From the NCBI RefSeq assembly GCF_964204645.1, contig NC_134027.1, forward strand, positions 26,834,485 through 26,898,484: DNA of 64,000 bases, in the 5' to 3' direction. Shown piece after piece: positions 11,150-53,500 of the stretch. The notes beneath the pieces are model-generated. The model was not told the origin of the DNA. It did not search any database and saw only the letters and a program-made list of their open reading frames with translations. How positions within the stretch are numbered: position 1 is the first letter of the stretch; each line of letters starts with the position of its first letter. This stretch comes from Tubulanus polymorphus. Its lineage: Eukaryota > Nemertea > Palaeonemertea > Tubulaniformes > Tubulanidae. The position numbers and the translations under genes are program-made.

Positions 11150-14100
11150 ATGAAGTGGATATATATGATATGTTTGTGTGTGTTTTTGATATTGATAGTT
11201 GTGAGTGATTTTAATGGAGTTATTGCTGATGAAACGAAAGCGGACCACCATCAACCACATTCTTCAGTTCAAAATCATTCCGATAATATTCGATTTCACG
11301 TGGCTACCGTCAATTTCGGCTATGTACAAACTCCTTATATTATATCAGTATGGATCCTAATCGCTAGTATCGCTAAAATCGGTGAGTAGAATTTACTAAA
11401 TTCTCTTAAAAACAACCTGTAATCAATCAACTGTCAAATTGAGAAATGTCAATTTGAAATTTCACTGATGAATTTATTCTGACAGTATTGTCACCTATTT
11501 GACCTGTTTTAGTTTACTGACTGTATTTTGCTATTGTTAAGTTGTTTTAAGTAGTAATTTTATGAAGAAGTCAAGTCTAGTCTAGTGCTCTGCTGCCTTT
11601 TCGCACTGCAGTGTATGTGCTAGTTAACTGGGGTTGGTTGTGAGTCCAATGTACACACTTATTGATCTCAGGTTCCTATAATTTCTCGGAAATCATTTTT
11701 CAATGTCTGGAGACTGTCACTTAAAATATAATTCATTCATTCTTGAACATTTCATTTCAATTACACTTATTTATATTGACACAATTTCTGGGACTGGGTA
11801 TGATTAAAAAAGAGTTTCTGATTGATTCATTAAGAAAAGAACACATAATCTTTCCCCAATGTTAAATAGGTCATTCTTAATTTATTCATATCTCCTCATT
11901 TCAATAGACTTGATAAAAGTACATATATTGATAGAAAGGCCTGTATGATAAAAGCTCCTCCGTGAATGGTTGAAAAGAAGGCGTTGTAATTTAGAACGGA
12001 CTCTGCTCATGTTTTATTAAAAACACTCGTCACGTGTTGGACTCATGCAGATTTTTTCTATCGCTTGTTTGGTTCTAATTGAGTGAGGCAGTGATAGACC
12101 GTTTTAGAATATCAAGAATCCATGACATTTTCTCGTTTCCATGAAGAGCAAAGAAATGAACTAAACATTTTGGCGAGTTAATTAGATTTATGACAGCAAC
12201 AAGCTCGTTATACCGGGGCAGTAATGATGTTGACGTCATTCGGTACCGTGGGTTACCGAAGACGAATTACTCCCTCGATTCCGTCAGGGAGAAACATGAA
12301 TTCTCAGAATCTGTCGTCACTGACGATGAATCAACGCGCGATGATTCTCGATATTTTTATGCCGGCGTTCAGATATTCCATCGCCCACTTATATCATCAT
12401 TATTACTTCATGTATATTCATTATTTGACTGTGTTTGATTAACTTCAAGCTGTTAAAGCAATCTTATCTTATACTGTTTTTGATTTTCATGAATTTTGAT
12501 TCTCTCGATATAGTTTCAAATGAAGTGCTCAGTATATACACGTAATGTATGGAAAAATACAGAGCCGTCGTTATCTCGTGGTCCGTATAAAAGTAATGAA
12601 ATGTCACTCATAGTTCAGACGTGTTTATATCAGAGATCAGACAGTCCCTGTCCCCCGAGGTAACGACGGCTGATTTATATTCATTTCACGCTTGCAAGAC
12701 CTCAGGTTTTTTACCGTAAATCGATTAGAAAGAACATAATTCAGACAGCGGTATACACTACTATCAACTCTTTCCAGAATATTCCGCAGTTCTTGCACCT
12801 TGAAAAATAGATAGAACATTGCCCATCATTGATATCTATCTTGATATAAAATTTTGCCTTATTTGACATAGCACCTTTGAATGAACGAGGCACTCACTGG
12901 TTTCATCTTCAATGACATTGTTTCCATTTGTTGGGTTTTTTAAGGGGCTTCAATTATTCTTTACTGAAACCTTTTCGACGTCAAATATTAAGCTTTTGAA
13001 ACATTGAAAATGAAACTTCATGATGTGATCTCTCACATTAGTGAATGAAGCAGTTGTCACTGTAAGCAATGGTGAAACATTGACAATTCAATTAATTCTT
13101 TATTGTTCCGTAACGTAGTTAAACATTATAAGATTAAGTACAATAAAGACAGGGGGATAAAATATAACATTTTAAAGATAGAGATAACAAAAACAATAAC
13201 AGTTTAATATACATATATACACAGGTTTTCAGTAAGTGAATCAGTGATAGTTTAATTAATGCCGATAACGGATACTGCGACGTAAAACACTACAGATTTC
13301 AGATAGTTTTTTTTTTTTTCATGAGTTAGACCCTTTCTCGATGTATTTCCCTAAATATTTGGCCATTTCTATAGAGGACATTATAGTTACAAATTTGACT
13401 TTATCATTTACATTTTGACATGAACTCGTGTCAAGGGGCAGCAGATCATTTAACAAGGATTGCAGGTGTTTGAACTGGGGCTGCAGATTTGAATTGATAT
13501 CGGTAGCTCCTCCAGAACGACTGAATTCAGTGATTAAATCAGATATTTCTATCTATATTTTTCAGATTTGAATTGATATCGGTAGCTCCTCTAGAACGAC
13601 TGAATTCAGTGATTAAATCAGATATTTCTATCTATATTTTTCAGATTTGAATTGATATCGCTAGCTCCTCTAGAACGACTGAATTCAGTGATTAAATCAG
13701 ATATTTCTATCTATATTTTTCAGATTTGAATTGATATCGGTAGCTCCTCTAGAACGACTGAATTCAGTGATTAAATCAGATATTTCTATCTATATTTTTC
13801 AGATTTGAATTGATATCGCTAGCTCCTTTAGAACGACTGAATTCAGTGATTAAATCAGATATTTCTATCTATATTTTTCAGATTTGAATTGATATCGGTA
13901 GCTCCTCTAGAACGACTGAATTCAGTGATTAAATCAGATATTTCTATCTATATTTTTCAGATTTGAATTGATATCGGTAGCTCCTCTAGAACGACTGAAT
14001 TCAGTGATTAAATCAGATATTTCTATCTATATTTTTCAGATTTGAATTGATATCGGTAGCTCCTCTAGAACGACTGAATTCAGTGATTAAATCAGATATT

Positions 14101-17100
14101 TCTATCTATATTTTTCAGATTTGAATTGATATCGGTAGCTCCTTTAGAACGACTGAATTCAGTGATTAAATCAGATATTTCTATCTATATTTTTCAGATT
14201 TGAATTGATATCGGTAGCTCCTCTAGAACGACTGAATTCAGTGATTAAATCAGATATTTCTATCTATATTTTTCAGATTTGAATTGATATCGGTAGCTCC
14301 TCTAGAACGACTGAATTCAGTGATTAAATCAGATATTTCTATCTATATTTTTCAGATTTGAATTGATATCGGTAGCTCCTCTAGAACGACTGAATTCAGT
14401 GATTAAATCAGATATTTCTATCTATATTTTTCAGATTTGAATTGATATCGGTAGCTCCTTTAGAACGACTGAATTCAGTGATTAAATCAGATATTTCTAT
14501 CTATATTTTTCAGATTTGAATTGATATCGGTAGCTCCTCTAGAACGACTGAATTCAGTGATTAAATCAGATATTTCTATCTATATTTTTCAGATTTGAAT
14601 TGATATCGGTAGCTCCTTTAGAACGACTGAATTCAGTGATTAAATCAGATATTTCTATCTATATTTTTCAGATTTGAATTGATATCGGTAGCTCCTTTAG
14701 AACGACTGAATTCAGTGATTAAATCAGATATTTCTATCTATATTTTTCAGATTTGAATTGATATCGGTAGCTCCTCTAGAACGACTGAATTCAGTGATTA
14801 AATCAGATATTTCTATCTATATTTTTCAGATTTGAATTGATATCGGTAGCTCCTCTAGAACGACTGAATTCAGTGATTAAATCAGATATTTCTATCTATA
14901 TTTTTCAGATTTGAATTGATATCGGTAGCTCCTCTAGAACGACTGAATTCAGTGATTAAATCAGATATTTCTATCTATATTTTTCAGATTTGAATTGATA
15001 TCGGTAGCTCCTTTAGAACGACTGAATTCAGTGATTAAATCAGATATTTCTATCTCTATTTTTCAGGTTTCCATCTCAACAATAAACTATCGTCGATATT
15101 TCCGGAGAGTTGTATGCTGATCGTACTCGGCGTAATCGTCGGACTCATTTTATTCTTCGGACGTCTCGCGCGATTCGAAGATTACGTCCTCAACAGTTCG
15201 ACGTTCTTCCTGTTTTTGCTGCCACCTATTGTCCTCGACGCCGGGTATTTTATGCCGAATCGAGCGTTTTTCGACAATATCGGCACGATTCTCTTGTACG
15301 CGGTGATCGGGACGCTGTTTAACACGTTCGCTGTAGGATTGTCGCTGTACGCGTTGACAGCTCACGGTTTAGACTGGATGGGTGGATTACAGTTAGATTT
15401 GATGCATTGTTTATTGTTCAGTAGTCTGATATCGGCCGTCGATCCGGTCGCCGTTCTAGCCGTTTTTGAAGCTATTCACATCGACGAGATGTTACATATC
15501 ATTGTGTTCGGCGAATCGCTATTAAACGACGCGGTTACCGTCGTAAGTATATTTCTGCGTTTCCATGGAATCATTCTGTTGTCGTCTAGCAACGTTCGTT
15601 TAACGAAGTTTCGCCGTGTAATTCATACTCTATCGATTCTAATGTTTGATATGTCGGCGTATGATAAAAAGCGATGTCAGGGGGGAGGGAGGGAGGGAGG
15701 GAGGAGGGACAGAGGGAGGAGGGATTGTTCCTACATATTGTCCGCCCTCTCTCTGTCTTACCACTGTTTTGTCTATAAGAATATTATCAATATTGTGTCT
15801 GTCCTGTTTGTAATCAATACCACAGTAAGGATTACCGGTATACGGTATATCATCGACTTAGCCTAAATAGATTACAATGTCTATGTTCACCTTAGCCTAC
15901 GTAGATTACAATGTCTATGTTCACCTTAGCCTACGTAGATTACAATGTCTATGTTCACCTTAGCCTACGTAGATTACAATGTCTATGTTCACCTTAGCCT
16001 ACGTAGATTACAATGTCTATGTTCACCTTAGCCTACGTAGATTACAATGTCTATGTTCACCTTAGCCTACGTAGATTACAATGTCTATGTTCACCTTAGC
16101 CTACGTAGATTACAATGTCTATGTTCACCTTAGCCTACGTAGATTACAATGTCTAAGTTCACCTTAGCCTACGTAGATTACAATGTCTAAGTTCACCTTA
16201 GCCTACGTAGATTACAACGTCTAAGTTCACCTTAGCCTACGTAGATTACAACGTCTATGTTCACCTTAGCCTACGTAGATTACAATGTCTATGTTTTAAA
16301 CATGTATCTCTGATTAAGGCTCGAACCTGCACCACCACATGTCGTGTAGGCCTATTAGAAATCAAATCTGATCTGATTGAAATCAGCTTTTAACATTTCA
16401 ATTCATTAACTACACAAGTTGAAATTCATCGTTCGTTAAAGGCTGGTGGGTATTGAAAAGCGTGACTTTAACGTGGAACTTTCTTAGAATTCCCGTCCCC
16501 TATAACTTCCTCAATGATTCAAATCATTGCTCAGTCCTCTTTACTACAATACAAAGTCACCGCCTACTGCAATCAAATGTGCTCAAGTCGTCAAAGTAGA
16601 AGTCATGACACTTAAGTAAAGTCATCTCTTTTTGAGTCCCAATTAGTATTTCTAATTCATTCTACTAAGTGTAAGTCATCATTTGGAGAAGTTGTCACAT
16701 TAATGAAGTCAATAGCTAGCACTGAAAGGGTTAAATTCGTATTTTGGAGAAGTCATCAAATCACTGAGGCTGTCTCTATTACTGAGTCCCAATTCCTAAT
16801 TCTATTTACTAAGTGTTACACATCAACATGATGATCGTCCTAAATGCTAGGGGCGACTTACTTCTGATTTTCACTGTATTTGCTTTCACCCTGATCATGG
16901 ATGTATAAACTAGATGTTAGTTTATAGTTTATACGTCTATGCCCTGATCTGGTATGTTTAATATGTATTTTCAGGTGCTGTACCACGTATTCGAGAGTTT
17001 CAGTGAAATAGAGAAACATGGAACGATTGTCACAGTGGATATAGTATCGGGATGCGCGTCGTTTTTTGTAATAGGATTAGTCGGGATGGTGATCGGGATC

Positions 17101-20100
17101 GTGTTCGGTTTAATCACCGGATTCATTACTAAATACACGTCTCATGTTCGCGTAATCGAACCTCTGTTTGTATTCGTCATGTCGTATCTGTCGTATTTAA
17201 CTGCTGAAATATTTCACTTCTCCGGAATCATGGCGTAAGTATTTCTGAGTTCATAATTATTTCCACTGTTGTCGTTGCGTAGAGCTTCATGATTTTCAGT
17301 ATTGGTTGAGAAATACTGATTTGTTTGATGCGTACAGAAATATGATATAAGAAATAAGATGTTACTGAGGGTCTTACTGTTGATTACTGATTAATGTGAA
17401 CAGAAATATGAAGGATGTTACTGAGGGTCTTACTGTTGATTACTAATTAATTTGTACAGAAATATGAAAGATGTTACTGAGGGTCTTACTGTTGATTACT
17501 GATTAATTTGAACAGATATATGAAGAATGTTACTGAGGGTCTTACGGTTGATTACTGATTAATTTGAACAGATATATGAAGGATGTTACTGAGGGTCTAA
17601 CTGTTGATAACTGATTAATCTGAGCATTTTCTTTCATATTTCAATATGTTACTGGAAAAAAATTCAATATGTTTCTGATAGTACATTTCAGAGGTTGGCC
17701 GCCCTGGTTGCGCAATATTCTGTGATGTATTCAAGCATGCACTAATGCTAGCGCAGAAAGCTGATATTGGGAATGCTGCCAATTTTTCCAAATCAATTTA
17801 GTCACATTCTTTATAGTGTAATTGAAATACCCACGATATTGATGATTGAAAGTGATAATTAATTACACCGATAGATTAATTCTATCCGTCTTCAGAGATT
17901 TATTTGGAATCAATTAATTTCATTCATTTTAGATACAACTCTTTAAGATGGATAGAAACATTCTATCTGAAACGTTAGATTGACAGTTTAATGAATATTT
18001 GCCATCGATCTTTCATATTTCGAGCCTTTTGTACAGAAATTCACAATCTAGGATTCAGATATATTTGATCTGAATACGTGTTAAAGCAATCTACCACCAA
18101 CCGCCGTATCTTTGATATTGTGGCTTCATTTACACTGCCGGTTTTCTCTATAAAACATAAAATTGGTTTCGTTTCATCTTGTGGCATTTATTGAAATATC
18201 AATTCTGTAAAACTATGGTTTCCTAGCGAAATTACAGACTTTGCTATACCAGTGCACTATTAGTGCAGCTGAATCAATATTAAACCAGACTCGAGTATTT
18301 GTACTGTTATCTATATATCGCGTATGACCTTGTAAATGATCGTTGATATTTTTTCTCCGATTTAAACAGAATCGTATTCTGCGGAATAACAATGAAACAA
18401 TACGTCGAGATGAACATGTCTCAGAAATCACACACGACCGTCAAGTATTTTATGAAAATGACAGCGAATATCAGCGAGACGATAATCTTCATGTTTCTCG
18501 GCACGTCGACCGTAACTGATACGCACGAGTTCAATATCGGATTCATCGGTTTTACTCTCGTATTCTGTCTAGTATATAGAGCTATAGGTGAGTTCACTCC
18601 CTTCCTCCAAAACAGTGAGTCCTGTCCCTTTGATACTCTGGTACAGCGAGACCAGTCCCTCCGGCACAATTAGTCCTGTCCCTTCCTCCAGTACAGTGAG
18701 ACCAGTCCCTCCAGCACAATTAGTCCTGTCCCTTTGATACTCTGGTACAGTGAGACCAGTCCCTCCAGCACAATTAGTCCTGTCCCTTCCTCCAGTACAG
18801 TGAAACCAGTCCCTCCAGCACAATTAGTCCTGTCCCTTTGATACTCTGGTACAGTGAAACCAGTCCCTCCAGCACAATTAGTCCTGTCCCTTTGATACTC
18901 TGGTACAGTGAGACCAGTCCCTCCAGCACAATTAGTCCTGTCCCTTCCTCCAGTACAGTGAAACCAGTCCCTCCAGCACAATTAGTCCTGTCCCTTCCTC
19001 CAGTACAGTGAGACCAGTCCCTCCAGTACAATTAGTCCTGTCCCTTCCTCCAGTACAGTGAGACCAGTCCCTCCAGCACAATTAGTCCTGTCCCTTTGAT
19101 ACTCTGGTACAGTGAGACCAGTCCCTCCAGCACAATTAGTCCTGTCCCTTCCTCCAGTACAGTGAGACCAGTCCCTCCAGCACAATTAGTCCTGTCCCTT
19201 CCTCCTGTACAGTGAAACCAGTCCCTCCAGCACAATTAGTCCTGTCCCTTCCTCCAGTACAGTGAGACCAGTCCCTCCAGCACAATTAGTCCTGTCCCTT
19301 CCTCCAGTACAGTGAGACCAGTCCCTCCAGCACAATTAGTCCTGTCCCTTCCTCCAGTACAGTGAAACCAGTCCCTCCAGCACAATTAGTCCTGTCCCTT
19401 CCTCCAGTACAGTGAAACCAGTCCCTCCAGCACAATTAGTCCTGTCCCTTCCTCCAGTACAGTGAGTCAAGGCATGTCGGGGAATATGGGTTTTTGGTGT
19501 CTTCTCTTTCTGGCTGGTGATGTGTTGTACAACCGTACCTCTTCATAAGAAACGGCCTCCACTAAGGGTATATCAATGAATTCTGACATTTGTTGAAAAT
19601 CAAGGAAAAGTCAGACAATTTGAATAATTTTGGTGTCTCGTTGCTGTTGCTGGTAATGAGTGGCCTAAGAAATCCCTTAATAAGAAACAGACCCCACTGA
19701 TGATATCTTATTATATAATCAGGGAATTTTTGGTTGAGGGTCAGCTAATATCTGGGGATTTTGGATTCCCTGATCTGTAAGAATCCAGGCCCCGGTTCCA
19801 CTGTTCTTGGTTAAATGTGACTCTGAATTAGTTTTTAACTCAGTCCCTTTAAACTCAAAATCTGAAGCCTGATAACAATCTATCATATCTCGTGTAACTA
19901 CTTGAATGATGAATTCAATTTCAGGTGTTGTAATATTAACAGCTATTGCGAATAGATTCCGTCTGGTAAAGTTGAGTAAAGTAGATCAGTTTGTGATGGC
20001 GTACGGAGGTTTACGAGGTGCTATCGCATTCTCTCTCGTTTCACTCTTACCCGCCGATATTATTGTCTATAAACGATTATTCGTCACCGCAACAATCGTC

Positions 20101-23100
20101 GTCGTTTATTTCACCGTTTTTATCCAGGTAACAATTCCTTGTTATTTGTGCCGCAAGTACTAGTAGCGAAGACTGGTATTTTTCATAAAAATCAAGATCG
20201 TCCTATTAAACAATTTGACTGCGATCATTGTTTTATCTCTGATCATTCGGTTGATAAATCACAAAAATAAGTAAGATTGCGTCACTGAATATCTCTGGAC
20301 CGTATTTTTTCACTTATGGCACTTCCATTTGTCACTGGAGGGTAGAATACCTACTTACCTGTGCGTTTGATTAAACTATAATGCGAAAAGGTTAAAGGTT
20401 GATTAGATGAATGAGGGATGATATTAAAGGTCATCGGTGAATGTTTATTAATAGATGAATTGTTGTTTTTTTATTCACACAGGGAATTACGATCAAACCC
20501 CTCGTTTATGCCTTAAAAGTCAAAAGGAGCACCAAACACAAACCATCGATGAATGAACAAATCCACGCCAGGGTAAGTTCTAGTTATTACCTCAACTCAG
20601 AGTTCTTACAGATCAGTGAAATCAGGGAATTCTGATTTAAGAATCGGGGGGTGTTTGTTGTTCTTGCTGGTTATGAGTGGCACAAGGAACCTCTTGATAA
20701 AAAACAGCCCCCATAGAGGATATCTTTCAATTTGATCCGGGATTCGAGTCGGGGATATATCAGAGAATTTTGGATTCGCTAATCTGTAAGAACCCAGTCA
20801 CCTACCCACCTGGAGTTTCTAACATATTTCGGGGTTTTATCAGGTGTTGATATGTGTTTAACTGATGACGTTGTCAATGCCTTGAACTATTTCTTTTCAC
20901 TAGCAACCGTTAATTGAATGAACGCTCTGTTTCAATGGTGGTAATTGAATTAAAATATTTTCAGTTTATCGACCACATTATGGCTGGAATTGAGGACATA
21001 TCTGGACATCACGGGCACCATTTTCTTAGAGGAAAGTAAGTATTCATACTATAATCCCTATAGATCATCAGGTCTACAATCCCTATAGTTCATCAGGTCC
21101 ACAATCCCTATAGTTCATCAGGTCTACAATCCCTATAGTTCATCAGGTCTACAATCCCTATAGTTCATCAGGTCTACAATCCCTATAGTTCATCAGGTCT
21201 ACAATCCCTATAGTTCATCAGGTCTACAATCCCTATAGTTCATCAGGTCTACAATCCCTATAGTTCATCAGGTCTACAATCCCTATAGTTCATCAGGTCT
21301 ACAATCCCTATAGTTCATCAGGTCTACAATCCCTATAGTTCATCAGGTCTACAATCCCTATAGTTCATCAGGTCTACAATCCCTATAGTTCATCAGGTCT
21401 ACAATCCCTATAGTTCATCAGGTCTACAATCCCTCTAGTTCATCAGGTCTACAATCCCTATAGTTCATCATCGATACCTCTAGTGTTAATCATGTAGATA
21501 TTTGATTCATTTCATTGTGTTCTCTAATTGATAAGCCAGTCAGGGGACACTGTAATATGGTTTCGACCACAGCAATGTTATTATCTATATATTCATTGGT
21601 CAAAGAGAAATCAATTCGTAGCAAGAATGAAAACAATGTTAGATTAGATCGGTTTCATCTCTGTTTCATAATTCTGCTGTCTATCTGTCTAACTGCTGTC
21701 TATCTGTAACAGCATTTGATATTTACACGTTGAAGTTGAAGGAGATAGCTTCACGTTTTCACTATTAAAGGTTCCATACGGCATACGCAGGGGGCAGCAC
21801 TGTTTCATACTGTTTTATCGATTTCGTTACAGATTCGAATATTTCAATACGAGATACATCAAACCGTTATTGATAAAGAACGCGCCTAAAACTCGCGAAA
21901 CGGGAATATTTGAAGTTTTCACGAAACTGAACATAAAAGACGCGATGGATCACATTGCGAGACACGGATCGTTTTCCGCTGAACACAATCTACTGAACGC
22001 TTCATCGCTGACGAAAATCATTCGAACAGCTTCAACTGGATCTATGCAAAGGTAAGACTGACGATCTGTTTGATACTGTTAACAGATGCGAATTTATTGA
22101 TTTAGGAATTTAACTATGAAAGAGAAGTCTGTCCCTGTCCCCACAACAGAATTCTGCCCCGCGACAGTACTCTGTGCCCACAACAGAATTCTGCCCCCAC
22201 AACAGAATTCTGCCCCCACAACAGAATTCTGCCCCCACGACAGAATTCTGCCCCCACAACAGAATTCTGCCCCCACAACAGAATTCTACCCCGCGACAGT
22301 ACTCTGTGCCCACAACAGAATTCTGCCCCCACAACAGAATTCTGCCCCCACAACAGAATTCTGCCCCCACGACAGAATTCTGCCCCCACAACAGAATTCT
22401 GCCCCCACAACAGAATTCTGCCCCCACAACAGAATTCTGCCCCCACAACAGAATTCTGCCCCCACAACAGAATTCTGCCCCCACAACAGAATTCTGCCCC
22501 ACAACCGAATTCTGCCCCCACGACAATATTCTGTCCCCACGACAGCAGTATTCTGTCCCCACAACAGCAGTATTTTTGTCCCCACGACAGCAGTATTCTG
22601 TCCCCGTGACAGAATTCTCTTTAAGTAGTTCCTGAATCAATCTACGTACTTACTATTGTAATACTTTTTGTGAAACTGGTCTTCAGACCTGACTACTTCC
22701 AGTAGAACAGTAAAACCTCCCTTAGTAAAAACCTCTCTGTTGTGAATGCCGTTTGCCGGTACCAAAATTTTCTCATCTTGAATACATACATCAGTTGTGC
22801 CTCCCCTCCCTATAGTAAATATTGAATACTTAGACAGAAAGTCAATTCTCTTTCAGAGCTCAAACGCTCAAAATCACAATAGTTTCCAGTTCATTATCGA
22901 TGAAACTGCTATTTTATACGTTAGATTGTGGCGAAAACTACTAAAATGGTAGATACAAAGTTAGTCACAGGTCTGGGCCACTGAACTTTAATGTATACTG
23001 TAACGATTGATACTTTATTTATATCTAGTACATGTCGACTATTGAATCCATCTCCTAATATTGAACGCAGGTATTCATAATATTGTCCTATTTATTATTA

Positions 23101-25085
23101 TTATTCGCTGCTCTGTTCTCTCAATTCTGTTCATTCCTGCTTCATCGTTCTATAATTTCCATGTGTCATGAGATCAGAACCCAATGTATCCTCGCGCGAG
23201 ACTCGAGACTTTTACACTGTAATCTGTTGTAGAAATAACTGCATCAAACAAACAAATGTTTTGTGTCTCACGCGTTCGTTTGGTTCTGGTTTCATCATTA
23301 TGCTCGACTGTGGCAATCAATGATTCTGCTTGATTCCACCAGGTGTCGCTAGTACACAATCAGACAATGATTCCCAAATTTCTTCTCGGATTCAATTCAA
23401 ATCTATCCATGATTTCCCAATTTTTCCTAAATTCTATGAATGATGAATAAAAATCCCGCTGTATTTGTAGCCTAAAGATCAATCTTAATTACTACTCATA
23501 TTTCTACCTGACTAAAATTCTGTAATATTCATTCAATATAAATATAGCGAAAATCTGAAAAAGATCGCCACTTTCAGCTGCACCAAAATATACGCTCACA
23601 TAACTTGACTTAAATGCTATTGATAGGATACGTCATCTAGTAGGATAGCGGCAGCACTGGGTCCTCATTAAAACGATTATAGATATCTATAATAGTGAGT
23701 TAGAACAGGGAGGTGGGAGAGAATATTCCTGTTCAGCTGTTAAAATCTCTCTTATATTTGGTGAATACAATAATTTATACTTTGTGAATATTTTACATTC
23801 ATCATTCAGAAGATTGATTTATATTTCACTTGCAATCATATTTGTTTATGCTGTCACAGCTTGGCATTTGAAACATTAATGTTCGCGTATGTATCACAAG
23901 GGGGCGTTGTTTGGTGTAACCAGTCAGTGAGAGATGGTCGACTCGACTCTTTGGTCGACCTGTTCAGTTGACTAGTTGGTCGATATGTCATGTTTTACCT
24001 GCGTGATGGAAAGAGACACATAATGTTTGTAAGGTTCACCTAGAGTTTACTCTATTTATAGATGAATGATTGCTTTTTGCTTCTACATGTCTCTCCTCTC
24101 TCTCCTCTCTTGATTGGTGTATTCTTATTCTATGTTTCTGTATATATTTTAATTACCTGTCTGTTTGATATTGATTCAATTTATAATGACTGCATATCTT
24201 GTATATAGAGCTGAACTAGTACCTTTCACAATGGGTGGAGGCCACTCCTGTCATTTTCACATCTACCCTTCTGAAAATCGACCTGCCTGGTCCAAAAATC
24301 CTCTACACATTAAGTTGATAATAATGCTCGCAACAATTGTTGTTTGTGTAAAGTAATGAGCTCGTGGTGAAATAACAGATTACACAAAGAATTGAGCTTG
24401 ATTTTGAGGAGACCAAAGGAATCGCTACTTCAGCAGCCACAATCTGTTTGGTCTAAACATTCAATGCAGCTCCTCTAAAACTAACTGCAGTGTTTGGAGA
24501 AACACTGTATTCTTATTCATTATCTGAAAATCTAGTTTAATTTAATCTTGAAAACCAATTCATTGAAGGAGTGTCTGGTAGATTGATATGATTGATAGTC
24601 TGTGTAGGGCCTGTAGTTAAATGGTGTCATCTGGCTTATTATTTATATATATATCGCAGATTTCTTATTCATAAAATCTATGATAGCTCCCAATCCCATG
24701 TATCAGATGTTTGTTACGGCTGAAGGTCACCCTAATTGAAGGCTCTATGAAAAAAAAAACCGATTTTAAACATATACATGTATATAATATGTATATTTTC
24801 AATGATAATTCGATATGCCTTGTTATTGCTATTTATATCATTGTTCGGTACCTGGGAATTTATCGTTCAATCTAAACGGATACAGTTAATACTTTTTACT
24901 GTTTTATTACTATTTTTAGAACAATTCATTAATCGATTAATCCATGTCTGAAAACTAGGTCAAGGTGGCCAGTTAGTAGAGTGGACATTGTGCAGGTCAT
25001 ACACACATGAACACAGTGATCAGGGTGTTATATCACTTGTGTAAAAATCACCTATATAGAGTGCAGTCATTAGTGACTATATCTA

Positions 25086-25132
<47 letters not shown>

Positions 25133-28100
25133 TTGTTTGAAGTTGATTTTAGCGCGTGCCAAGAAAGACCGCGATAAATTCTATTAATATGGAGATGAGA
25201 ACTGGGTGACCTTCAATATCTCAGTACATGGAGGAATCATCGTGAATATATACACAGTGCACTGTGTATGGATCTGTGTGTGTGAGGGGGTAGATGCTGC
25301 TGCTGCTGCTGCTGCTGTCTCTCATCTTAGTAGCCTCTCAGTTCGAGGGGTTTGAGTCAAACTCCTTTAGTCACTAAATTTACACTCATTCATTAGTCAA
25401 GAATTGTGAGAAGAAAAGGGGGTTGATTTCGGGACACTCTTCACCCCCTCGGTCTTTCTCCACTCTCACTCAGCTCGACACGAGATCTTCTCTTATTCCT
25501 TTGTTTCGGTAAAGGTCAGGATTAAACTTAGATGCCTTCGTTTGATTAGTAAGTGCAACCGTGTATTTTTATATGATATTTTCCTGCGTGAATGTATGAT
25601 GAATGATTAGTTTGTGGAGGGGTGGAATGTGTGGGTTGATTGTCAGTGTAGGTGGTCGTCGTCTATATAACCTCCTTTGTTTCTTCATTGTCTTTGTCCA
25701 TTTCTCAGAAACCTCGTATTACAAAAACTCAGAGTGATTTCAGATGAATAAAACAATGTGCATCATTTTTCATTCAAAATGATTTTTTCCGGGGACTGAG
25801 AGAAGAATTATAGTAAATTTGTATGTACCAAAAGTCATCTCTTACGTGCGTACCTTGTCAACACGTACGCCTTTTAAAGTCTTTAGTACTTAACTCGTGC
25901 TCAACTTTTATTCTCGACATTTTTTATATAAGAAAGATACGTCAATGTAAAACCATAATCAGAAAGGGTTTTTAACAGAAGTAGAAAATAACTCCTGGTC
26001 CTTTCACATTTAGATATCGGATGTCTCTAAAAGAAAATTCATGTTTTAAGCTTTGATATCAAACAGGAAAGATATGCCTTGATTTAACGACTAAACAGGG
26101 AAAATAAGTTTTTTGAAGTAGATGAGGTGAATAGCTTATCAAAAGTCTGCAATAGGGTAAAAGTTGACCTGCTGTCTACCTAACTATGGTTAGCTTGTAC
26201 CCTGTTAAGTGTTTTGACATTTCTAGCTGGTAATGGCCTATCCGATATCTTATATGTATCACAAAATGAACATTCTTAATTTATGTTTTGATGTCTAACC
26301 AAAATTATAGCCTTGATATGAAAATCAGAAAAAATTAATTTCATAAAATCATTAGCTGAGGTCTACAGCTTCTCAATGATCAGGATAAGTTTGGCAAGTA
26401 GGGTATGGTTTGATCTGTGTTAGGAGCCGTGGATTTTTGGATTCGGAACAATTCGACATTTTGCCATATTTGACATTTTTCTTAAGTTTAGTGAACAAAC
26501 ACAATGTCACTGGCACCCACACAATCAATTAACATATGTCACACTGTATTATTGTATACAGTGAATCAGCTGATTAAATATAATAACTTCTTTGTTAATT
26601 ACGACCAGCAGATGTCACTACCGGTCAAATGTATGATTATATTGTTGTTTATTATATTTTTCTAGTTACACGAGTTCGAATAAAACAAGTAAACATGCAG
26701 ATGAAGAAATAGATCCTGGCAGCACTGTTCTCGATATGCAATCTCTTGAGGCGCGATTCTCACGTAAAATGGCCGACGACTCGAAAATTCATCACATCAT
26801 CGAAGAAAATATGTTCAATCCTCGTAAAAGAGTAAGTAATGTGTTATAAATATGAAAATCATTTCACGCGTGGAAATGGGTTCAATTAACTCTGAAATAT
26901 GACCCTCGAAATGAACAGTGTAATTAACCAAGAAATGTAGAACTAAATTTAAATCAGGAGCCAGTTCCACAGTTTACTGATACAGTCAATTTGGTCAAGA
27001 TTAAAAAAGCATACAGTACCAGATTTGAGAAACTGAATTCATTACTGAGAGAATTGAGTCCAAAACTGCACTTACTGGCTGCTGGACCGTGGAACTGGAT
27101 ACAGAACTGTGGAACTGAGTCCATAACTGTGGAACTGAGTCCGGAAAATGTGGAACTGGATCCAGAACTGTGGAACTGGTTCCAGAAAGTGTGGAACTAG
27201 ATCCAAAACTGTGGAACTGAGTCCTGATAATGTGGAACTGGTTCCAGAACTGTGGAAATGGTTCTGGAAAGTGTGGAACTGGGTCCACCTCTGATAAAAC
27301 GTTCACTTTTCAATCAACAAAAACTGAATTCTGGTCAAAATGTTATGATAAATTCCAGTTTTTCTGGAGTGAAATCCTGTTTCCTCAGGTTTTACCAATC
27401 GGGGTCATCATTGCTTACAATACACATGCAAGTAGAACACGTGATTTGGACGTTATCCAAAAGTATGGGTGTAGTACAAGACTGACGAGTAACTGTGACT
27501 AATATTCCAGGGTCATCGGAAAATTATCTACCCAGAATTCATACCCACTTATCATTCAATAAAGACCTACGTTTCTCACACACTCAGTTTACTAGGGTAA
27601 AGGATATCGGTTTCTTAGAATAAGTCTTCGTTTACCTCCGTCTGAAAATAGGTGATGTTAAGAAAAATAAACTTCCCGATGGTGAATAGCAGTTGACTGA
27701 TAGTAGCTGCTAACACAAATACCGAATAATCAGAACAAATATTAGGAGAGGAAAACTATTAGAAAAAAACCGGAGAATTGTTAGAAAATGAAAAACCAGT
27801 TAATTGTTAGAAAATAAAAAACCAGTTAATTGTTAGGAGACAATTAAAAACCAGTTAATTGTTAGATAATTAAAAATTAGTTAATTGTTGAAAGATTAAT
27901 TGAGCGCTTTATATCCTGTAACCAGAGTTTACAATGTACCTGATAGATTTAGCAAAATCGGTAATAATGAATGGAACGTAAACAGTTTGAACGATTGTCT
28001 GTGGGTTTTGATAATGTGTGGGTTTTTTGTTCGAGATAAGCTCGATAAATGTAATATTTGATGGAAATTCGTTGTATTGTTTATTGTGCTGCTGTAAGTA

Positions 28101-31100
28101 GTAGTGTGGTGGTGGTGGTAGGATAATTGATCATGGGATAATAGAGAAGAAAAAAAACCAGTCAATATTCGGGTAACCCTAAAAAAACAACCAAAAGTAT
28201 ATTCAGAAGTGATGCGTCTTTTTCATAGAAAGCTTCGGGAACAAAAAAAAGGTCGTAGCGTTTTTCTAGAGGGGTTTTTGTTGTCGACGAACGGGTATTT
28301 AACCTAATTCTAAAATAGAACTCTGCTTCGTGATTGGCTGTCGGTATTATGCGTATATTACTAGCCCACACCGAACAGACGTCATTGTCGTCGGTACACA
28401 TGAAGCCAGCACGTGTGTGTGTATGTATGTGTGTGTTGGATATAAAGCTTGTTACGTACTCAGTCAGCTGCTATTGGTATATACTACGCGTACGGCTGTG
28501 TTGTTAGGTTTGGTTGCCAGCAATACAGTCCCCGACTGCGATTGTCTCAGAGGATTTTTCATATACAACATATGTGACTGCGTGATTGTTGATTTGTGAC
28601 ACTCCTTTCTATGGCTGATTTGGCGTATATTATTGCGGATCCGATGAATGATTTGGTAGGTCTCTATAATTTCATTTCTGTACTGAGTTTGTGTAGTTTT
28701 CGATGGTATTTTTTCTAGTATCACGCGTCCGTACAGCTGATATCACTAAACATTCGTTCGTGTATATTTTGAATTCTATATTTTTCCGTAGAAACCTATA
28801 ATTGGAGTTTTGATTTAAGTATCTCAGTACGACGAGAGAAATCCCACAATAACGAAGCCAAGATTGAAAAATTCTATATCGGAATGATTATATTTGAGGC
28901 GCGATGTTTCGGCTAACAACTGTTAGCCATCATCAGGCCTACTAGTACGCCAGCCGAAACGTCGCTCCTCAAATATCATCATTCTGATATAGAATTTTTC
29001 AATCTTGGCTTCGTTATTGTGGGATTTCTCTCGTTATCATCATACACGGATATTGTGTATCTTCTCGTCTAATCTCAGTACGAACTAGAATTCTAGACTT
29101 TAGATATTTTTAGTACGCACTATAAATGATTTTGAAGTTTCTTTTTTTTTGTTACGCACATTGAAATTATTCATGAAATCATGAATTTGTCGAGTAATCG
29201 AGATTTCTCTTTAATTGCTGTATTTGGTTTGGTTCATGTACAAATGAATACAATGATCATCCTCAGACGTTGTGCGTGCATTCGCACTATGATTGACCTC
29301 ATTCATGTCGTGACCTCTAATAATCCGGCTTTCATGGGACGACTACTTCAATAAGCTTTCATTCGCGAGCCACAGAGGACAAAGTTTAATTAACCATAGG
29401 TCAAGTTATGATTTCAAATATTCCATTTTACGTTTGTTTGAATTTTCAAGGTGCCTTTGAACTTAGAACCTAAGAACATATGGTTCCCTTATCAGGCACT
29501 TATAGCATTCATTTTGCCCTGGCATAATTTTTGATAAAAGAAATAAATGTATATATTAGACTTAGTCATATTGGGTAGTGTTGGGATGGCTTACATTTCA
29601 TTCAGTTGAGAATCAAGGAATTCGGTAGCATTTAGACTGCTGTATTTCACTGAGTTGAGAATCAGGGAACTCGTTAGCGTTGAGACTGCTGTATTTCACT
29701 GAGTTGAGAATCAGGGAACTGGTTAGCATGTTGAGACTGCTGTATTTCACTTGAGTTGAGAATCAGGGAACTCGGTAGCGTTGGGACTGCTGTGAATATT
29801 TCACTGAGTTGAGAATCAGGGAACTCGGTATAGCGTGTTGGGACTGCTGTAAATATTTCACCGAGTTGAGAATAAGGGAACTCGGTAGTGTTGGGACTGT
29901 TGAGTTACGAATATTTCATTGAAGCTGACAATTTTTAGTACTGTAAAAACTGTCCTGATTTGTGCAGTTAAACCGAGCACATTCTATAATGATTCTAAAT
30001 GAATGTATATTATATTGAATTATAGTAATTTGACCGTGATTGATGTTTGAATATATTGTCTATGATTTCAGTGGGTCCAACACAGAAAACATGAATTATT
30101 AGATGTTGAAAATCACGTGCCGTTTCATCACCACCTTCGCACGCATCTACGACATGTGATCAGTACACATCAGGAAAAACATCAACGTCGAAGACAAAGC
30201 CGCAGTCAAGCTAAATTAACGGATCCGGACTGCATGAGAAAAAACGTCAGTTTCGCTTTAATAGAGGATACGATGAATAAAAAGAATGAGGAAAAAACAT
30301 GTAAGTTTATTTGGTCCGTTTGAAATCAATATCAAACAGAAATTCATCATTATTTTGCTATTTCGAGATGAATGTTTTTTATTCCAGTGACGAATGAAGT
30401 GATTGATGAGAATCTGTCGGTTAAAAGCGATCTCTCTGATGAAGATATTGGAATCACATTCACAGCTAGTAAACAGCAAGGTTCCCCTGATTCCGTTGAC
30501 GGAGGTACGTTCCAATCTGAGTCCGTGTATAAAACTCCCCACTCTAAGAGTAAAACGAGTCCGAAATTTTTCCTCGGGCTAGTAGTTTATTCGATGTTTC
30601 AACTATATCCTACTTCTCATCTTCAGGAATAAAGGTCTTGCAGTTAAACACAATAAGTGATTCACATTACAGACCCCTGATTATCTAATGTTTTGTTATG
30701 TATGGCAAGTCTCCAGCACTAGTTAGCGAACAAACTGTCATGAACAAGACCTCTTAGATATTGTGAAGATAATTATCAAAGTTGAAATGCTGAATGAACT
30801 AGGGAAACATTGCAGACTGTTTTACATTCTTATCGGGGAATTATGTATAACACATTTCGATGTCAGTTCAGGATAAAAAATTTGCTTACAAAACCACTGA
30901 ATTTACCGAGATTAACAAACCCAAGGAGTCTTTTGTATTTGGGATATGAAAGTGATGCAGACATTTCTATGAAATTAGAAATATTTCCCTTTAAAACTTC
31001 AAAATATCCAGGAATGACTGAACTGTAGGGACAGGAATGACTGAACTGTTGGCACACTGTGTATCCAGAAATGACTGAACTGTAGGGACAGGTTTGACTG

Positions 31101-32232
31101 AACTGTTGGCACACTGTGTATCCAGAAATGACTGAACTGTAGGGACAGGTTTGACTGAACTGTTGGCACACTGTGTATCCAGAAATGACTGAACTGTAGG
31201 GACAGGTTTGACTGAACTGTTGGCACACTGTGTATCCAGGAATGACTGAACTGTAGGGACACTGATTTACAAATATTCTATTTCAATCATATTTTTATTT
31301 CAGAACCCGAAGACCAAGTGGACGCGATTGAATTAGAGCCGACTGCTGTCGAGAAATCGTTACCCTGGAAACGCGATACCGGTCGGCCGCCGATGTCAAC
31401 GTCATTTTCACATTCCTTACCGAACGACGAGGCTCCACATCTGAGTGAAGCGCCATCTTGGGTGGCGAATCCGCAATACACGGTAACTCCGTTCAGTCCG
31501 ATCGTACCGCGTAAAATCAGCGACGACGTCAACAAAAATGAAGAGGTGACGTTACCGTTTCCGTGGAGGACCCCGGATACCGAGAACTCTAACGTATCGC
31601 CTCATTGGAGGACGAACGATAATATCAACGATAAAACATCATTTAATCTGAAAATATCAAATACAACTGACGAAACGGACGACTCGGTCTTACCTCCTCC
31701 GCTTCCCTGGAGGACTCCGGATACAGACGAATCGACGCTACCTCCTCCGTGGAAGGATTCGTTATCCGACCCGGTACGCGCCTCACCTCGCGACGAAGAT
31801 GCCGATTCATCGCCGGCGCGAACCTGGGCTCCGCACGTTCCATTCTCCGACGAGAACAGTTTAAACGGAAATTCCAAACATTCCGACCACATTAACTATC
31901 CGCACGTGATGGATTTACCGGGACAGAATACGGACGAGACGGCGCCGCCTCAGAACGTCATGTTCGATAAGAACGATTTCATCGGCGGATTCGACCGTCA
32001 CAAACGTCGCCCGTCGTTCATGAAGAACGTGGTGCCGGAATTACCGCGTCGCGCGTCCGACTTCTTCCCGCGCGAAATGAATGAAGAGATCGATCCTCAC
32101 GATCGCATCGCTAACTGGTTGAAGAATAGCCACGCCGACCTGATGCAGTCGCCACCTATAATCGATTTACCCGATATAGCTGTGATGTCGAATGGACGAC
32201 CGAATTCCATCGACCTCGAAACTAATTTATAA
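11150..32232 (+). CDS. Na+/H+ exchanger, NHE3-like (SLC9A2/3/5 clade)
   Basis: Electroneutral Na+-in/H+-out antiporter, expected at the plasma membrane or recycling endosomes. Twelve exons join in frame: 11150-11381, 15067-15542, 16975-17234, 18370-18587, 19925-20127, 20483-20572, 20965-21035, 21833-22051, 26666-26831, 30072-30300, 30388-30504, 31304-32232, giving 1069 aa. Residues 1-26 look like a signal peptide. Family marks are [14 protein letters not shown] (128-141, amiloride-sensitive helix), AVDP (201-204), GESLLND (226-232, transport N231/D232) and GGLRGAIAF (423-431, R426). The regulatory tail keeps NHE3-type features: [16 protein letters not shown], then LDMQSLE and a FNPRKRW segment. 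The last exon is acidic and proline-rich with repeated PWR/PWK motifs. Introns 1-4, 7-9 and 11 contain tandem repeats; the shortest introns (5, 6 and 10) do not. Identity is secure. The paralogue label within NHE2/3/5 is inferred. Confidence 0.96.
12560..12672. mobile_element. Short TIR element (MITE-like) in exchanger intron 1
   Basis: AGCCGTCGTTATCTCG near 12562 is inverted relative to CGAGGTAACGACGGCT near 12656, with about 80 bp between. No coding potential. The size and termini suit a MITE; its superfamily is unknown. Confidence 0.45.
13484..15063 (+). repeat. 79-bp minisatellite, 20 units, in register with a 3' splice site
   Basis: CAG trinucleotides recur at 13484 plus multiples of 79; the 21st, at 15064-15066, is the real splice acceptor of exchanger exon 2. 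Each unit ends in a T-rich tract and TTTTTCAG and also carries the palindrome CTGAATTCAG. Units differ only at a few sites (CTCTAG or CTTTAG, CGGTAG or CGCTAG). The CTTTAG variants recur partly every fourth unit, which points to duplication of blocks of units. Confidence 0.97.
15679..15715 (+). repeat. GGGA-rich simple repeat
   Basis: Short run of GGGA/GGAG repeats in exchanger intron 2. Confidence 0.8.
15858..16299 (+). repeat. 34-bp minisatellite, 13 units
   Basis: The unit begins TTAGCCTACGTAGATTAC and repeats every 34 bp with rare substitutions (TCTATG or TCTAAG; CAATG or CAACG). It starts about 315 bases into exchanger intron 2. The core TACGTA is self-complementary. Confidence 0.95.
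16306..16350 (-). repeat. tRNA-derived SINE-like fragment (B-box)
   Basis: The minus strand has GGTGCAGGTTCGAGCC, a Pol III B-box, directly next to the 34-bp array. There is no full cloverleaf. Confidence 0.35.
17335..17630 (+). repeat. 56-bp minisatellite, 5 units
   Basis: GTTACTGAGGGTCT recurs at 17361, 17417, 17473, 17529 and 17585, exactly 56 bp apart. The array begins about 100 bases after the donor of exchanger exon 3. Confidence 0.9.
18598..19466 (+). repeat. 50/54-bp minisatellite beginning at a 5' splice site
   Basis: About 17 units, alternating a 50-bp form (CCTTCCTCCAGTACAG) with a 54-bp form (CCTTTGATACTCTGGTACAG). The array starts within 11 bases of the exon 4 donor (18587/18588, GTGAGT). 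Most units repeat CAGTGAG, a partial donor-like sequence. Long minus-strand ORFs across it are products of the repeat. Confidence 0.95.
19500..19795 (+). mobile_element. Dispersed TIR repeat, 5'-truncated copy
   Basis: Shares TTGCTGGTNATGAGTGGC, AAACAGNCCCCA and the end GATCTGTAAGAATCC with copies at 20605-20812 and 40292-40520. Confidence 0.5.
20605..20812 (+). mobile_element. Dispersed MITE-like repeat with GTTCTTACAGAT termini
   Basis: It opens with GTTCTTACAGATC and closes with ATCTGTAAGAACCC, a terminal inverted repeat of about 12 bp over about 210 bp. It lies in exchanger intron 6. Related copies are at 19500 and 40292. Confidence 0.6.
21051..21470 (+). repeat. 25-bp minisatellite, 17 units
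   Basis: The unit ACAATCCCTATAGTTCATCA plus GGTCT repeats 17 times, starting 16 bases after the donor of exchanger exon 7 (21035). It is nearly homogeneous, suggesting recent expansion. Confidence 0.95.
22138..22620 (+). repeat. 19-bp GAATTC-rich minisatellite
   Basis: About 25 units of ACAACAGAATTCTGCCCCC with variants (CGACAGTACTCTGTG, CAGTATTCTGTC). Each standard unit contains the palindrome CAGAATTCTG. It starts about 87 bases after the donor of exon 8. Its six-frame ORFs on both strands are repeat artefacts. Confidence 0.95.
22621..25088. other. Exchanger intron 8, unique sequence
   Basis: No exon or recognisable element. Small ORFs here lack family resemblance and proper splice context. 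Confidence 0.4.
25089..25125 (+). repeat. CT dinucleotide microsatellite
   Basis: Uninterrupted CT repeat of about 37 bases in exchanger intron 8. Confidence 0.9.
25293..25317 (+). repeat. CTG/TGC trinucleotide microsatellite
   Basis: About eight GCT/TGC repeats in exchanger intron 8, not in coding sequence. Confidence 0.85.
27060..27295 (+). repeat. Degenerate 18-22-bp array of GTGGAACTGGNTCCAGAA
   Basis: About ten imperfect units of GTGGAACTGGATCCAGAACT lie in exchanger intron 9, about 230 bases after the exon 9 donor. The unit matches the terminus of the dispersed MITE family seen at 1643-1742, so the array probably grew from an element end. Confidence 0.75.
28829..29035. mobile_element. 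Long-armed foldback element in exchanger intron 9
   Basis: Two arms of about 80 bp are nearly perfect inverted copies (GAGAGAAATCCCACAATAAC on the left, its complement ending at 29035) around a loop of about 40 bp. In the centre, on the minus strand, CTGATGA (28936-28930) is followed by a 7-bp hairpin GGCTAAC/GTTAGCC and GAAAC (28910-28906). The terminal motif is shared with 58768-59100 and 55240-55260. Confidence 0.8.
29575..29915 (+). repeat. 49-57-bp minisatellite, about 6 units
   Basis: GAGTTGAGAATCAGGGAACT recurs six times with spacing growing from 49 to 57 bp. It ends about 155 bases before the exon 10 acceptor. Confidence 0.9.
31012..31265 (+). repeat. 57-bp minisatellite, 4.5 units
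   Basis: TGTAGGGACAGG recurs at 31024, 31081, 31138, 31195 and 31252. The array ends 38 bases before the acceptor of the last exchanger exon (31304). Confidence 0.92.
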
Positions 32233-50557: not shown

Positions 50558-53500
50558 GCCAATCTAACACTAGATATGGATGCGATGTAATGATGAATTT
50601 AAGCTCCTTGACCTTTTTACGATTTGAAAACTATCACGTAAAATATATCGACAATCGAGTTTAGGTAAAGAAGCTTTAGATGAATGATTAGGTTATCGGT
50701 TTTTAAGGGGTAGCTCCCTTACCACTCATCTCCCTTTGCCAGCCCGAATCCAGCAGATCAGGCTCACCATTGATTATAGCAGACTTGCCCAAACACTCTT
50801 GATTCAATACTTTTATCCATTCATCGCATTCCAGGTCTGAAAATATACATAACCCATCAGCAACTTATTGCGGAAATGGTTAAATTAAATAAACGTAGTC
50901 TGGCAAAATGGTAGCTAATTAAGGTGCATTTTTTCTCATTTAAGCGAAGTTTCTAAAATAAACTATTTCCTTCGAGATATTAACCCTTTTAGCGCGTCTA
51001 CACTGCAGTGCGGAGTATAAATCAACGATGGACTTTGCTAGGACTTACACCGTATTGTAGTGAATTGATGTAAATAGTAATTAGTTTTTATCTCTTTTGA
51101 AGGATGACAGCACCTTTCAAACATAGTGAAACATTAGTATAACTAACAATACACCGTACTATATCGGTATACCTGTTATACAAAGCAATGGGGTGGAATC
51201 TTTTAAAACTTTCAAATTACTTCCAGCACTTGAGGTATTAATTAGTCAGTACTGAAAGGGTTAATACTAGAAAAAATATTAAACAATGGTTGAATAAAAT
51301 TCCCTATTAAGAATTACCTGATTCACATGAAAATTGCCTGGAAGCTTCATCTTTGAAATAAAGAGTTACGCCGTATTTGCGGACATCAGTCGGTAGACGA
51401 CAAATCGTTTTCACGTCGGAAAGATCAATCATTTTCAAATAGCTCGAATGATTGGCGGCTTTTTCATCGAGAAATTTCTCTAAACGACAAGTTCCTTTAG
51501 AAGATGCGGCTCTTAAGATGATCCATCGTTTTTGCCAAACCTATAAGATGATTGAAACGCATTGTAAAACGGTTATTCTGAACAAAGGTTTACAGAATCG
51601 CCATGGCGTGGAATCGGTCGGATCCAGGGGCAGGCTGTAAACATGAGCACACAGAAATGGAATGGGAATACTGTTAAAAAGGATACACAGAATCTTTGCT
51701 GTAGAGGAAACCAAACAGGACCCAGTTTTACGAAAAAGTTTAAAAGCATAAAACGGTTAAGTTTGAATTGGTGTCCTCATTGAAGATATGAAGTAACCAA
51801 TTGCAATTTCAAAAGGGCTCAGGAAAATTGTGATGGGATCGAGGACTTGCTCTTTGTGCTTCCACGTGGATCAACCCCTTTGTGGAAAGGGACATACCAG
51901 GGGAGGAACCACATAATTTTTCATTTCTTTATGTAATCGGTAGAATTTTGTGGTCTGGTTGAATGAGTCCTGTATATTCATATACAAAAGGCCCGCACAA
52001 TTTTCAATACCCTTTTTGCGAGTAACTTTGAATTTCTAAACGACGATTACATCTCTGTATAGCGAGGTTTATATTGTGTGTAGCAGGTTGGTAAATTCCA
52101 TCATCCTCTACTCAAACTCCTCCATCATCATCATGTGGTTAGAATTATCCAGTTTTGTTTGCAGGCATTCAACAATCGAGTGATAATTCAACATCACGCT
52201 GATAAAAGATCGACCGCGGATCAGCAGTAAATGTAGCCGGATAAGTAGAGATAAAAGCTCAGAGATTATCGATGGAAATGTACAGAGTTTGACCAGCGGT
52301 GAAATAGAAGTTTTAACGGTATACAAACTGCTACTGGTTCAAACTGTTTGAAATCATATACAACACAAATATTTATATATACAAAAACAAACAATGAATA
52401 GTAAATTGTTACTCAAACATATATAAATCCGACACTGAGTTTTACAGCTAAATGAATAAATTGATGCATCCTTTTAGCCCTTTATGCATGAATTATAAAA
52501 ATAACTAAGTCAAATTTCTGATTCTTCTATAGAAAATGCACCAGATACACCAGAAATATAGCTATTAATATATAATGCAGCAGGTGTTGTTTAATAAACA
52601 GGTTGAACACAGGTGGAATGAGTGAGAGTTACTGAAATACAGGAATCCACTCAACTGGAAAAAACATGTTTGAGTAAAACTAACTGTACAATTCACTGCT
52701 GCTGATTGTTTACTCAAATACGGAGAAGTTTCCTCCTATTGATGATAGAACATCAATGGAATTTCATAAAAAGGCAGAGGACTTCAAAAAGTTTTAGAAT
52801 GTCCACTTAAAATGAGAGAAATGACAAAGGAAAAGAGGAGCGGGAGGGAGGAGGGAGATGGAGGATGGGTAGGGAGGCAAGGGGAGAGGGGGAGGAGGGA
52901 GATGGAGGATGGATAGGGAGGCAAGGGGAGAGGGGGAGGAGGGAGATGGAGGATGGATAGGGAGGCAAGGGGAGAGGGGGAGGAGGGAGATGGAGGATGG
53001 ATAGGGAGGCAAGGGGAGAGGGGGAGGAGGGAGATGGAGGATGGATAGGGAGGCAAGGGGAGAGGGGGAGGAGGGAGATGGAGGATGGATAGGGAGGAAA
53101 GGGGAGAGGGGGAGGAGGGAGATGGAGGATGGATAGGGAGGCAAGGGGAGAGGGGGAGGAGGGAGATGGAGGATGGATAGGGAGGCAAGGGGAGAGGGGG
53201 AGGAGGGAGATGGAGGATGGATAGGGAGGCAAGGGGAGAGGGGGAGGAGGGAGATGGAGGATGGAGAGGGAGGAAAGGGGGAGGGGGAGGAGGGAGATGT
53301 AGGATGGAGAGGGAGGCAAGGGGAGAGGGGGAGGAGGGAGATGGAGGATGGATAGGGAGGCAAGGGGAGAGGGGGAGGAGGGAGATGGAGGATGGATAGG
53401 GAGGCAAGGGGAGAGGGGGAGGAGGGAGATGGAGGATGGAGAGGGAGGAAAGGGGGAGGGGGAGGAGGGAGATGGAGGATGGATAGGGAGGAAAGGGTAG

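Follow-up and report, generated by a model that had tools for sequence, protein, structure and literature searches.

How the spliceosome chooses among near-identical acceptors has been debated ever since sites were duplicated experimentally in 1983-1986, and the locus described here raises that question in a natural gene. In the nemertean Tubulanus polymorphus, intron 1 of a Na+/H+ exchanger gene ends in a tandem array that carries an acceptor-like site in nearly every unit, so that three things have to be explained: which site is the acceptor of exon 2, how the copies came to lie beside it, and why the last one may win. The window is the whole stretch of DNA analysed, 64,000 nucleotides of contig NC_134027.1; coordinates refer to it unless another locus is named, and a slash within a sequence marks a splice site or an array border.

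An exchanger exon behind an array of acceptors

The gene was rebuilt from 12 exons as an NHE3-like Na+/H+ exchanger whose open reading frame runs without interruption over about 1069 residues, with a Pfam Na_H_Exchanger match of 1.7e-87 and NHE3 (PDB 7x2u, 2.7e-183) as its nearest solved structure. Exons 1 and 2 join in frame, and the CAG at 15064-15066, which the earlier note had named as the actual acceptor, next in register with the array, can be regarded as securely predicted, since the NHE3 alignment passes the exon 1-2 junction without insertion (ASIAKIG-FHLNNK / ASLAKIG-FHLSHK). The features of this region are:

11150-11381, + strand: exon 1 of the exchanger, coding part from the ATG, with donor ATCG/GTGAGT
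11382-15066, + strand: intron 1 of the exchanger gene model, 3685 nt, phase 1
13484-15063, + strand: tandem array of 20 units of 79 bp (Tandem Repeats Finder and unit-by-unit comparison)
13484-13486, + strand: leftmost CAG, lacking a polypyrimidine tract (-3.3 bits) and not an acceptor candidate
13563-13565, + strand: CAG of the first decoy acceptor, with decoys then every 79 bp to 14985-14987 (19 in total, 9.26 bits each)
14985-14987, + strand: CAG of the last (19th) decoy, 79 nt upstream of the real acceptor
15064-15066, + strand: CAG of the real acceptor (11.2 bits), top of the 210 AGs in intron 1
15067-15542, + strand: exon 2, 476 nt, Na_H_Exchanger domain, with donor CGTC/GTAAGT

The 20-fold repetition of a 79-bp unit, as first read from the letters, was recovered both by unit-by-unit comparison and by Tandem Repeats Finder (13484-15070, period 79, 20.1 copies, 98% matches, no indels, score 3097), whose call runs on to 15070 through the likeness of the exon start, GTTT, to the ATTT of the unit. 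Units are 98-100% identical, each with 0-2 differences from the consensus that are confined to columns 20, 29, 30 and 72, and the right end of the array coincides exactly with the exon 2 acceptor. Where the earlier note counted 20 extra acceptors, the copies do recur every 79 bp, but the leftmost CAG is preceded by TTTGAACTGGGGCTG (that is, CTGGGGCTG), without a T-tract, which leaves 19. Complete sites of T-tract plus CAG are thus 20 in all: 19 decoys (ending at 13565, 13644, ... 14987), with CAG and tract intact in 19/19, and the real site ending at 15066, which differs slightly from the copies (TCTCTATTTTTCAG/G in the real site versus TCTATATTTTTCAG/A in the copies).

Functionally, the same note had expected upstream CAGs to bring stops into the transcript, and this proved correct in a uniform way: with intron phase 1, any decoy reads on as G/AT TTG AAT TGA. 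Decoy use should be unproductive, since every decoy adds D-L-N-stop, and only the last of the 20 acceptors should be able to give a working protein. The array holds no AG/GT other than that of the real acceptor (the copies read CAG/ATTT) and no donor above 2.7 bits, so a recursive splice site (ratchet point) and pseudoexons were both rejected on sequence grounds. With these ruled out, the one change to exon structure that a decoy could bring is a longer exon 2, of 555, 634, ... 1977 nt instead of 476 nt.

Origin of the array and its neighbours

The tandem organisation could in principle belong to a dispersed satellite, a transposable element or a structured RNA repeat inserted beside exon 2, and the array does draw weak mir-29-like Rfam matches, at 21-24 bits against a family threshold of 46.7. 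Within the limits of the search tool, however, no match to the 79-bp unit turned up outside the array in the 268-Mb genome, a uniqueness that is meaningful within those limits because a similar search, serving as positive control, recovers dozens of copies of a foldback repeat. No Rfam match rises above threshold, overall folding of the array is no stronger than that of shuffles (z-score 0.05), and the array borders are explained by a short shared motif. A dispersed repeat or transposon and a structured RNA or ribozyme array were accordingly rejected as candidates, and we regard an insertion of any of these kinds as extremely improbable. The foldback repeat itself is MITE-like (28832-29034), with 83-nt arms that are 95% complementary around a 37-nt spacer, and is present in dozens of genome copies.

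The shared motif is CAGnTTT, common to the left border (GGGCTG/CAGATTTG) and the right border (TTTTT/CAGGTTTC) of the array, with the internal copies carrying the left-border version. This anatomy points to microhomology at the very CAG of the acceptor as the start of the duplication. An ancestral CAGATTT would have preceded the acceptor CAGGTTT by 79 bp, and the segment between the two would have been duplicated when the CAGnTTT microhomology mispaired or served for end-joining. A first duplication of this kind would explain why all copies are in register, and each new copy would end in a complete acceptor by construction, since the duplicated segment ran between two CAGnTTT motifs. Growth may then have followed by slippage or unequal exchange, perhaps partly in multi-unit blocks; a lag-4 signal for block-wise growth in 4-unit steps is suggestive only (p = 0.08).

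A different account of the same position is that an ordinary minisatellite came to abut the exon by chance in a minisatellite-rich genome, with splicing context irrelevant to its origin. Minisatellites make up 27% of the exchanger's intron sequence, at least one lies in every intron of about 800 nt or more (15857-31261; periods 19-79 bp) and none in introns of < 400 nt, and at 68 other exon loci the arrays are for the most part distant from exon edges. Against chance, arrays within the exchanger gene lie nearer exon edges than under random placement (p = 0.0005 for the mean log distance and p = 0.02 for exact abutment; one gene), and two further arrays, containing donor-like units, overlap a donor or lie next to one. 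We therefore think chance abutment unlikely, and favour duplication seeded at the acceptor.

Two of the other arrays involve donors. The first follows exon 4 of the exchanger:

18641-19466, + strand: tandem array (unit of ~50 bp) that begins 53 bp downstream of the intron 4 donor

Many of its units carry a donor-like ACA/GTGAG of 4.6-5.6 bits, where the lowest true donor of the set scores 6.9. Splice-site arrays are thus only some of the gene's minisatellites: those of introns 7 and 11 contained no strong decoys, and those of introns 2, 3, 8 and 9 were located by position. The second array lies in another gene, where a myosin exon (locus L048, 1612-1900) ends in the donor GAAAAATCCCG/GTAAGA, which is present three times in register at 65-70 bp spacing, the repeat copying about 20 exon bases along with the donor. 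The real donor scores 8.9 bits and the copies 8.2 and 8.6, all within the true-donor range, and judged by its sequence this locus is a donor-side counterpart with strong predicted decoys. It was the sole clear array overlap among 94 scored edges in the 68 loci: splice-site arrays exist in this genome but are not general.

Elsewhere, a purine-rich 18/27-bp array (L052:1367-1490) begins some 19 bp beyond a myosin exon's donor, the gene lying on the minus strand of that locus. Searches of the genome for lineage markers yielded no mitochondrial COX1 and no match to the mollusc haemocyanin, annelid linker or cellulose synthase families, the haemocyanin and linker searches having no positive control. 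The window also holds a 1.16-kb array at 52846-54008 (44-bp purine-rich unit, 26 copies, 96% matches), which raises the GC skew to 0.70 and keeps long reading frames open; it is probably a non-coding minisatellite.

Acceptor strength and the advantage of the last site

Acceptors were scored with a position weight matrix from 44 acceptors of the same genome, excluding the focal site; 11 came from the exchanger gene and the remainder were taken automatically from the 68 exon-centred loci, whose automatic exon edges are approximate, so that the matrix serves as a guide. On this scale the real acceptor is at about the median of true sites and each decoy lies above 19% of them, and among the AGs of intron 1 the real acceptor ranks 1st and the decoys 2nd to 20th. 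The real site's advantage of ~2 bits comes from its +1 G plus one extra pyrimidine; nearly all of the gap is due to the G after the real CAG, and a decoy given that G would score 10.95 bits. Branch points are not securely callable from sequence, and TGAT-like cores are weakly enriched among pentamers around 43 acceptors; each array copy has a TGAT 32 nt before its AG. The earlier note held that the array repeats the 3' splice-site segment itself, which is supported by the branch-point-like sequence, T-tract and CAG of each unit, and it allowed that a unit devoid of a branch point would speak against recognition of the copies, whereas the motif is present throughout.

From a mechanistic perspective, exon definition, together with the ~2-bit advantage, would be an ordinary and sufficient explanation of why the last site wins. 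The passages on exon definition in PMC9225289, whose numbers are from other animals, have it set in once flanking introns exceed 200-250 nt, with exons of > ~500 nt then included inefficiently and the nearer splice site across the exon chosen over others, a preference tested on 5' sites. Here intron 1 is 3685 nt and intron 2 is 1432 nt, and among the 20 acceptors only the real one gives an exon of < 500 nt. With such long flanking introns, exon 2 would be recognised across the exon, and the acceptor nearest its donor would win by giving the shortest exon (476 nt, versus 555-1977 nt for decoys). The real acceptor is in addition the strongest-scoring AG in the intron (CAG/G, longer tract), and it may adjoin putative exonic enhancers. 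Folding predictions give unpairedness values for tract and exon start of 0.60/0.61 at the real site versus about 0.47/0.26 at the decoys, which would make the real site a little more accessible, although the array as a whole folds like its shuffles.

Low-rate decoy use is conceivable, yielding D-L-N-stop messages that would presumably be destroyed by nonsense-mediated decay. Two considerations point the other way from an exon-proximal choice: co-transcriptional splicing would expose the decoys up to 1.5 kb earlier than the real site, and, in the portions of PMC9225289 dealing with duplicated acceptors, intron definition favours the upstream copy, as did the experiments of Reed and Maniatis (1986) described there.

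Thus, we posit, with reasonable though not full confidence, that the array is a local minisatellite of the last 79 bp of intron 1, tolerated and not functional, and that exon definition favours the exon-proximal acceptor. Of the three ways by which the earlier note let the last site win (exon sequence, branch-point choice or distance), exon sequence would contribute in part, through the +1 G that with one pyrimidine makes up the ~2-bit edge. Its conclusion that selection or a buffering mechanism is implied was too strong: the exon-proximity rule together with that edge could suffice, and comparable arrays in amphioxus are reported to be splicing-neutral.

The same scores admit a regulatory interpretation, in which the 19 decoys would act as a poison switch that diverts a variable share of splicing to stop transcripts, array length tuning expression via nonsense-mediated decay. 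The decoys are strong enough for recognition (9.3 bits), all lead to the same early stop, and 0/19 have lost CAG or tract; recent homogenisation, however, equally predicts intact copies, the longer introns of this gene hold unrelated minisatellites to which no such logic applies, and there is no sign of regulation. A switch of this kind thus appears quite unlikely to us, and the tolerated minisatellite remains our preferred reading.

Splice-site arrays in other systems

The closest parallel is with the amphioxus "mirages", splice-site minisatellites that are reported to leave mRNA splicing undisturbed and to have unstable lengths, and that have so far been found in cephalochordates (PMC3087553, PMC3902484). 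In the exchanger, too, near-identical units with a splice signal follow one another head to tail up to the authentic site, and the array shares with mirages units of a similar kind, the repetition of a signal beside the authentic one (on the acceptor or the donor side there) and a setting in ordinary protein-coding genes. It differs from the amphioxus BflGb6 array in having 20 copies instead of 3-6, and in a unit that stops at the CAG and takes in hardly any exon sequence, whereas BflGb6 units include the start of exon 2; compared with a boundary-spanning mirage repeat, the sequence shared here ends at CAG plus a mismatched nTTT. By analogy, the exchanger array would be the acceptor-side equivalent of a mirage, higher in copy number and with a unit practically free of exon sequence.

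Engineered duplicated splice sites (Lang and Spritz 1983; Reed and Maniatis 1986, as cited in the relevant passages of PMC9225289) offer a second comparison, in which near-identical acceptors compete for one donor, so that position would be the main variable in the constructs as in the array. The exchanger array, unlike the constructs, is natural, 20-fold and set in a long intron, with the real site ~2 bits ahead. Rogers' proto-splice-site model of intron gain (discussed in PMC3087553) also has segmental duplication multiply splice signals at a junction; in the exchanger, by contrast, the copies are confined to an intron that was already there and lack a donor, and no new intron has formed.

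From an experimental standpoint, the array is a natural 20-step ladder with 79-nt rungs, along which strength is nearly constant while position varies, and it could tell "first site wins" apart from "exon-nearest site wins". Evolutionarily, it would show the amphioxus mirage phenomenon in another animal, and it provides a concrete route for multiplying intron ends, microhomology at the acceptor CAG. It is possible, if on balance doubtful, that splice-site minisatellites are recurrent in this animal lineage, with intron ends acting as tandem-duplication hot spots via CAG-plus-tract microhomology and the copies harmless under exon definition. If so, array length would be a fast-changing trait outside lancelets, either silent for splicing or tuning dose.
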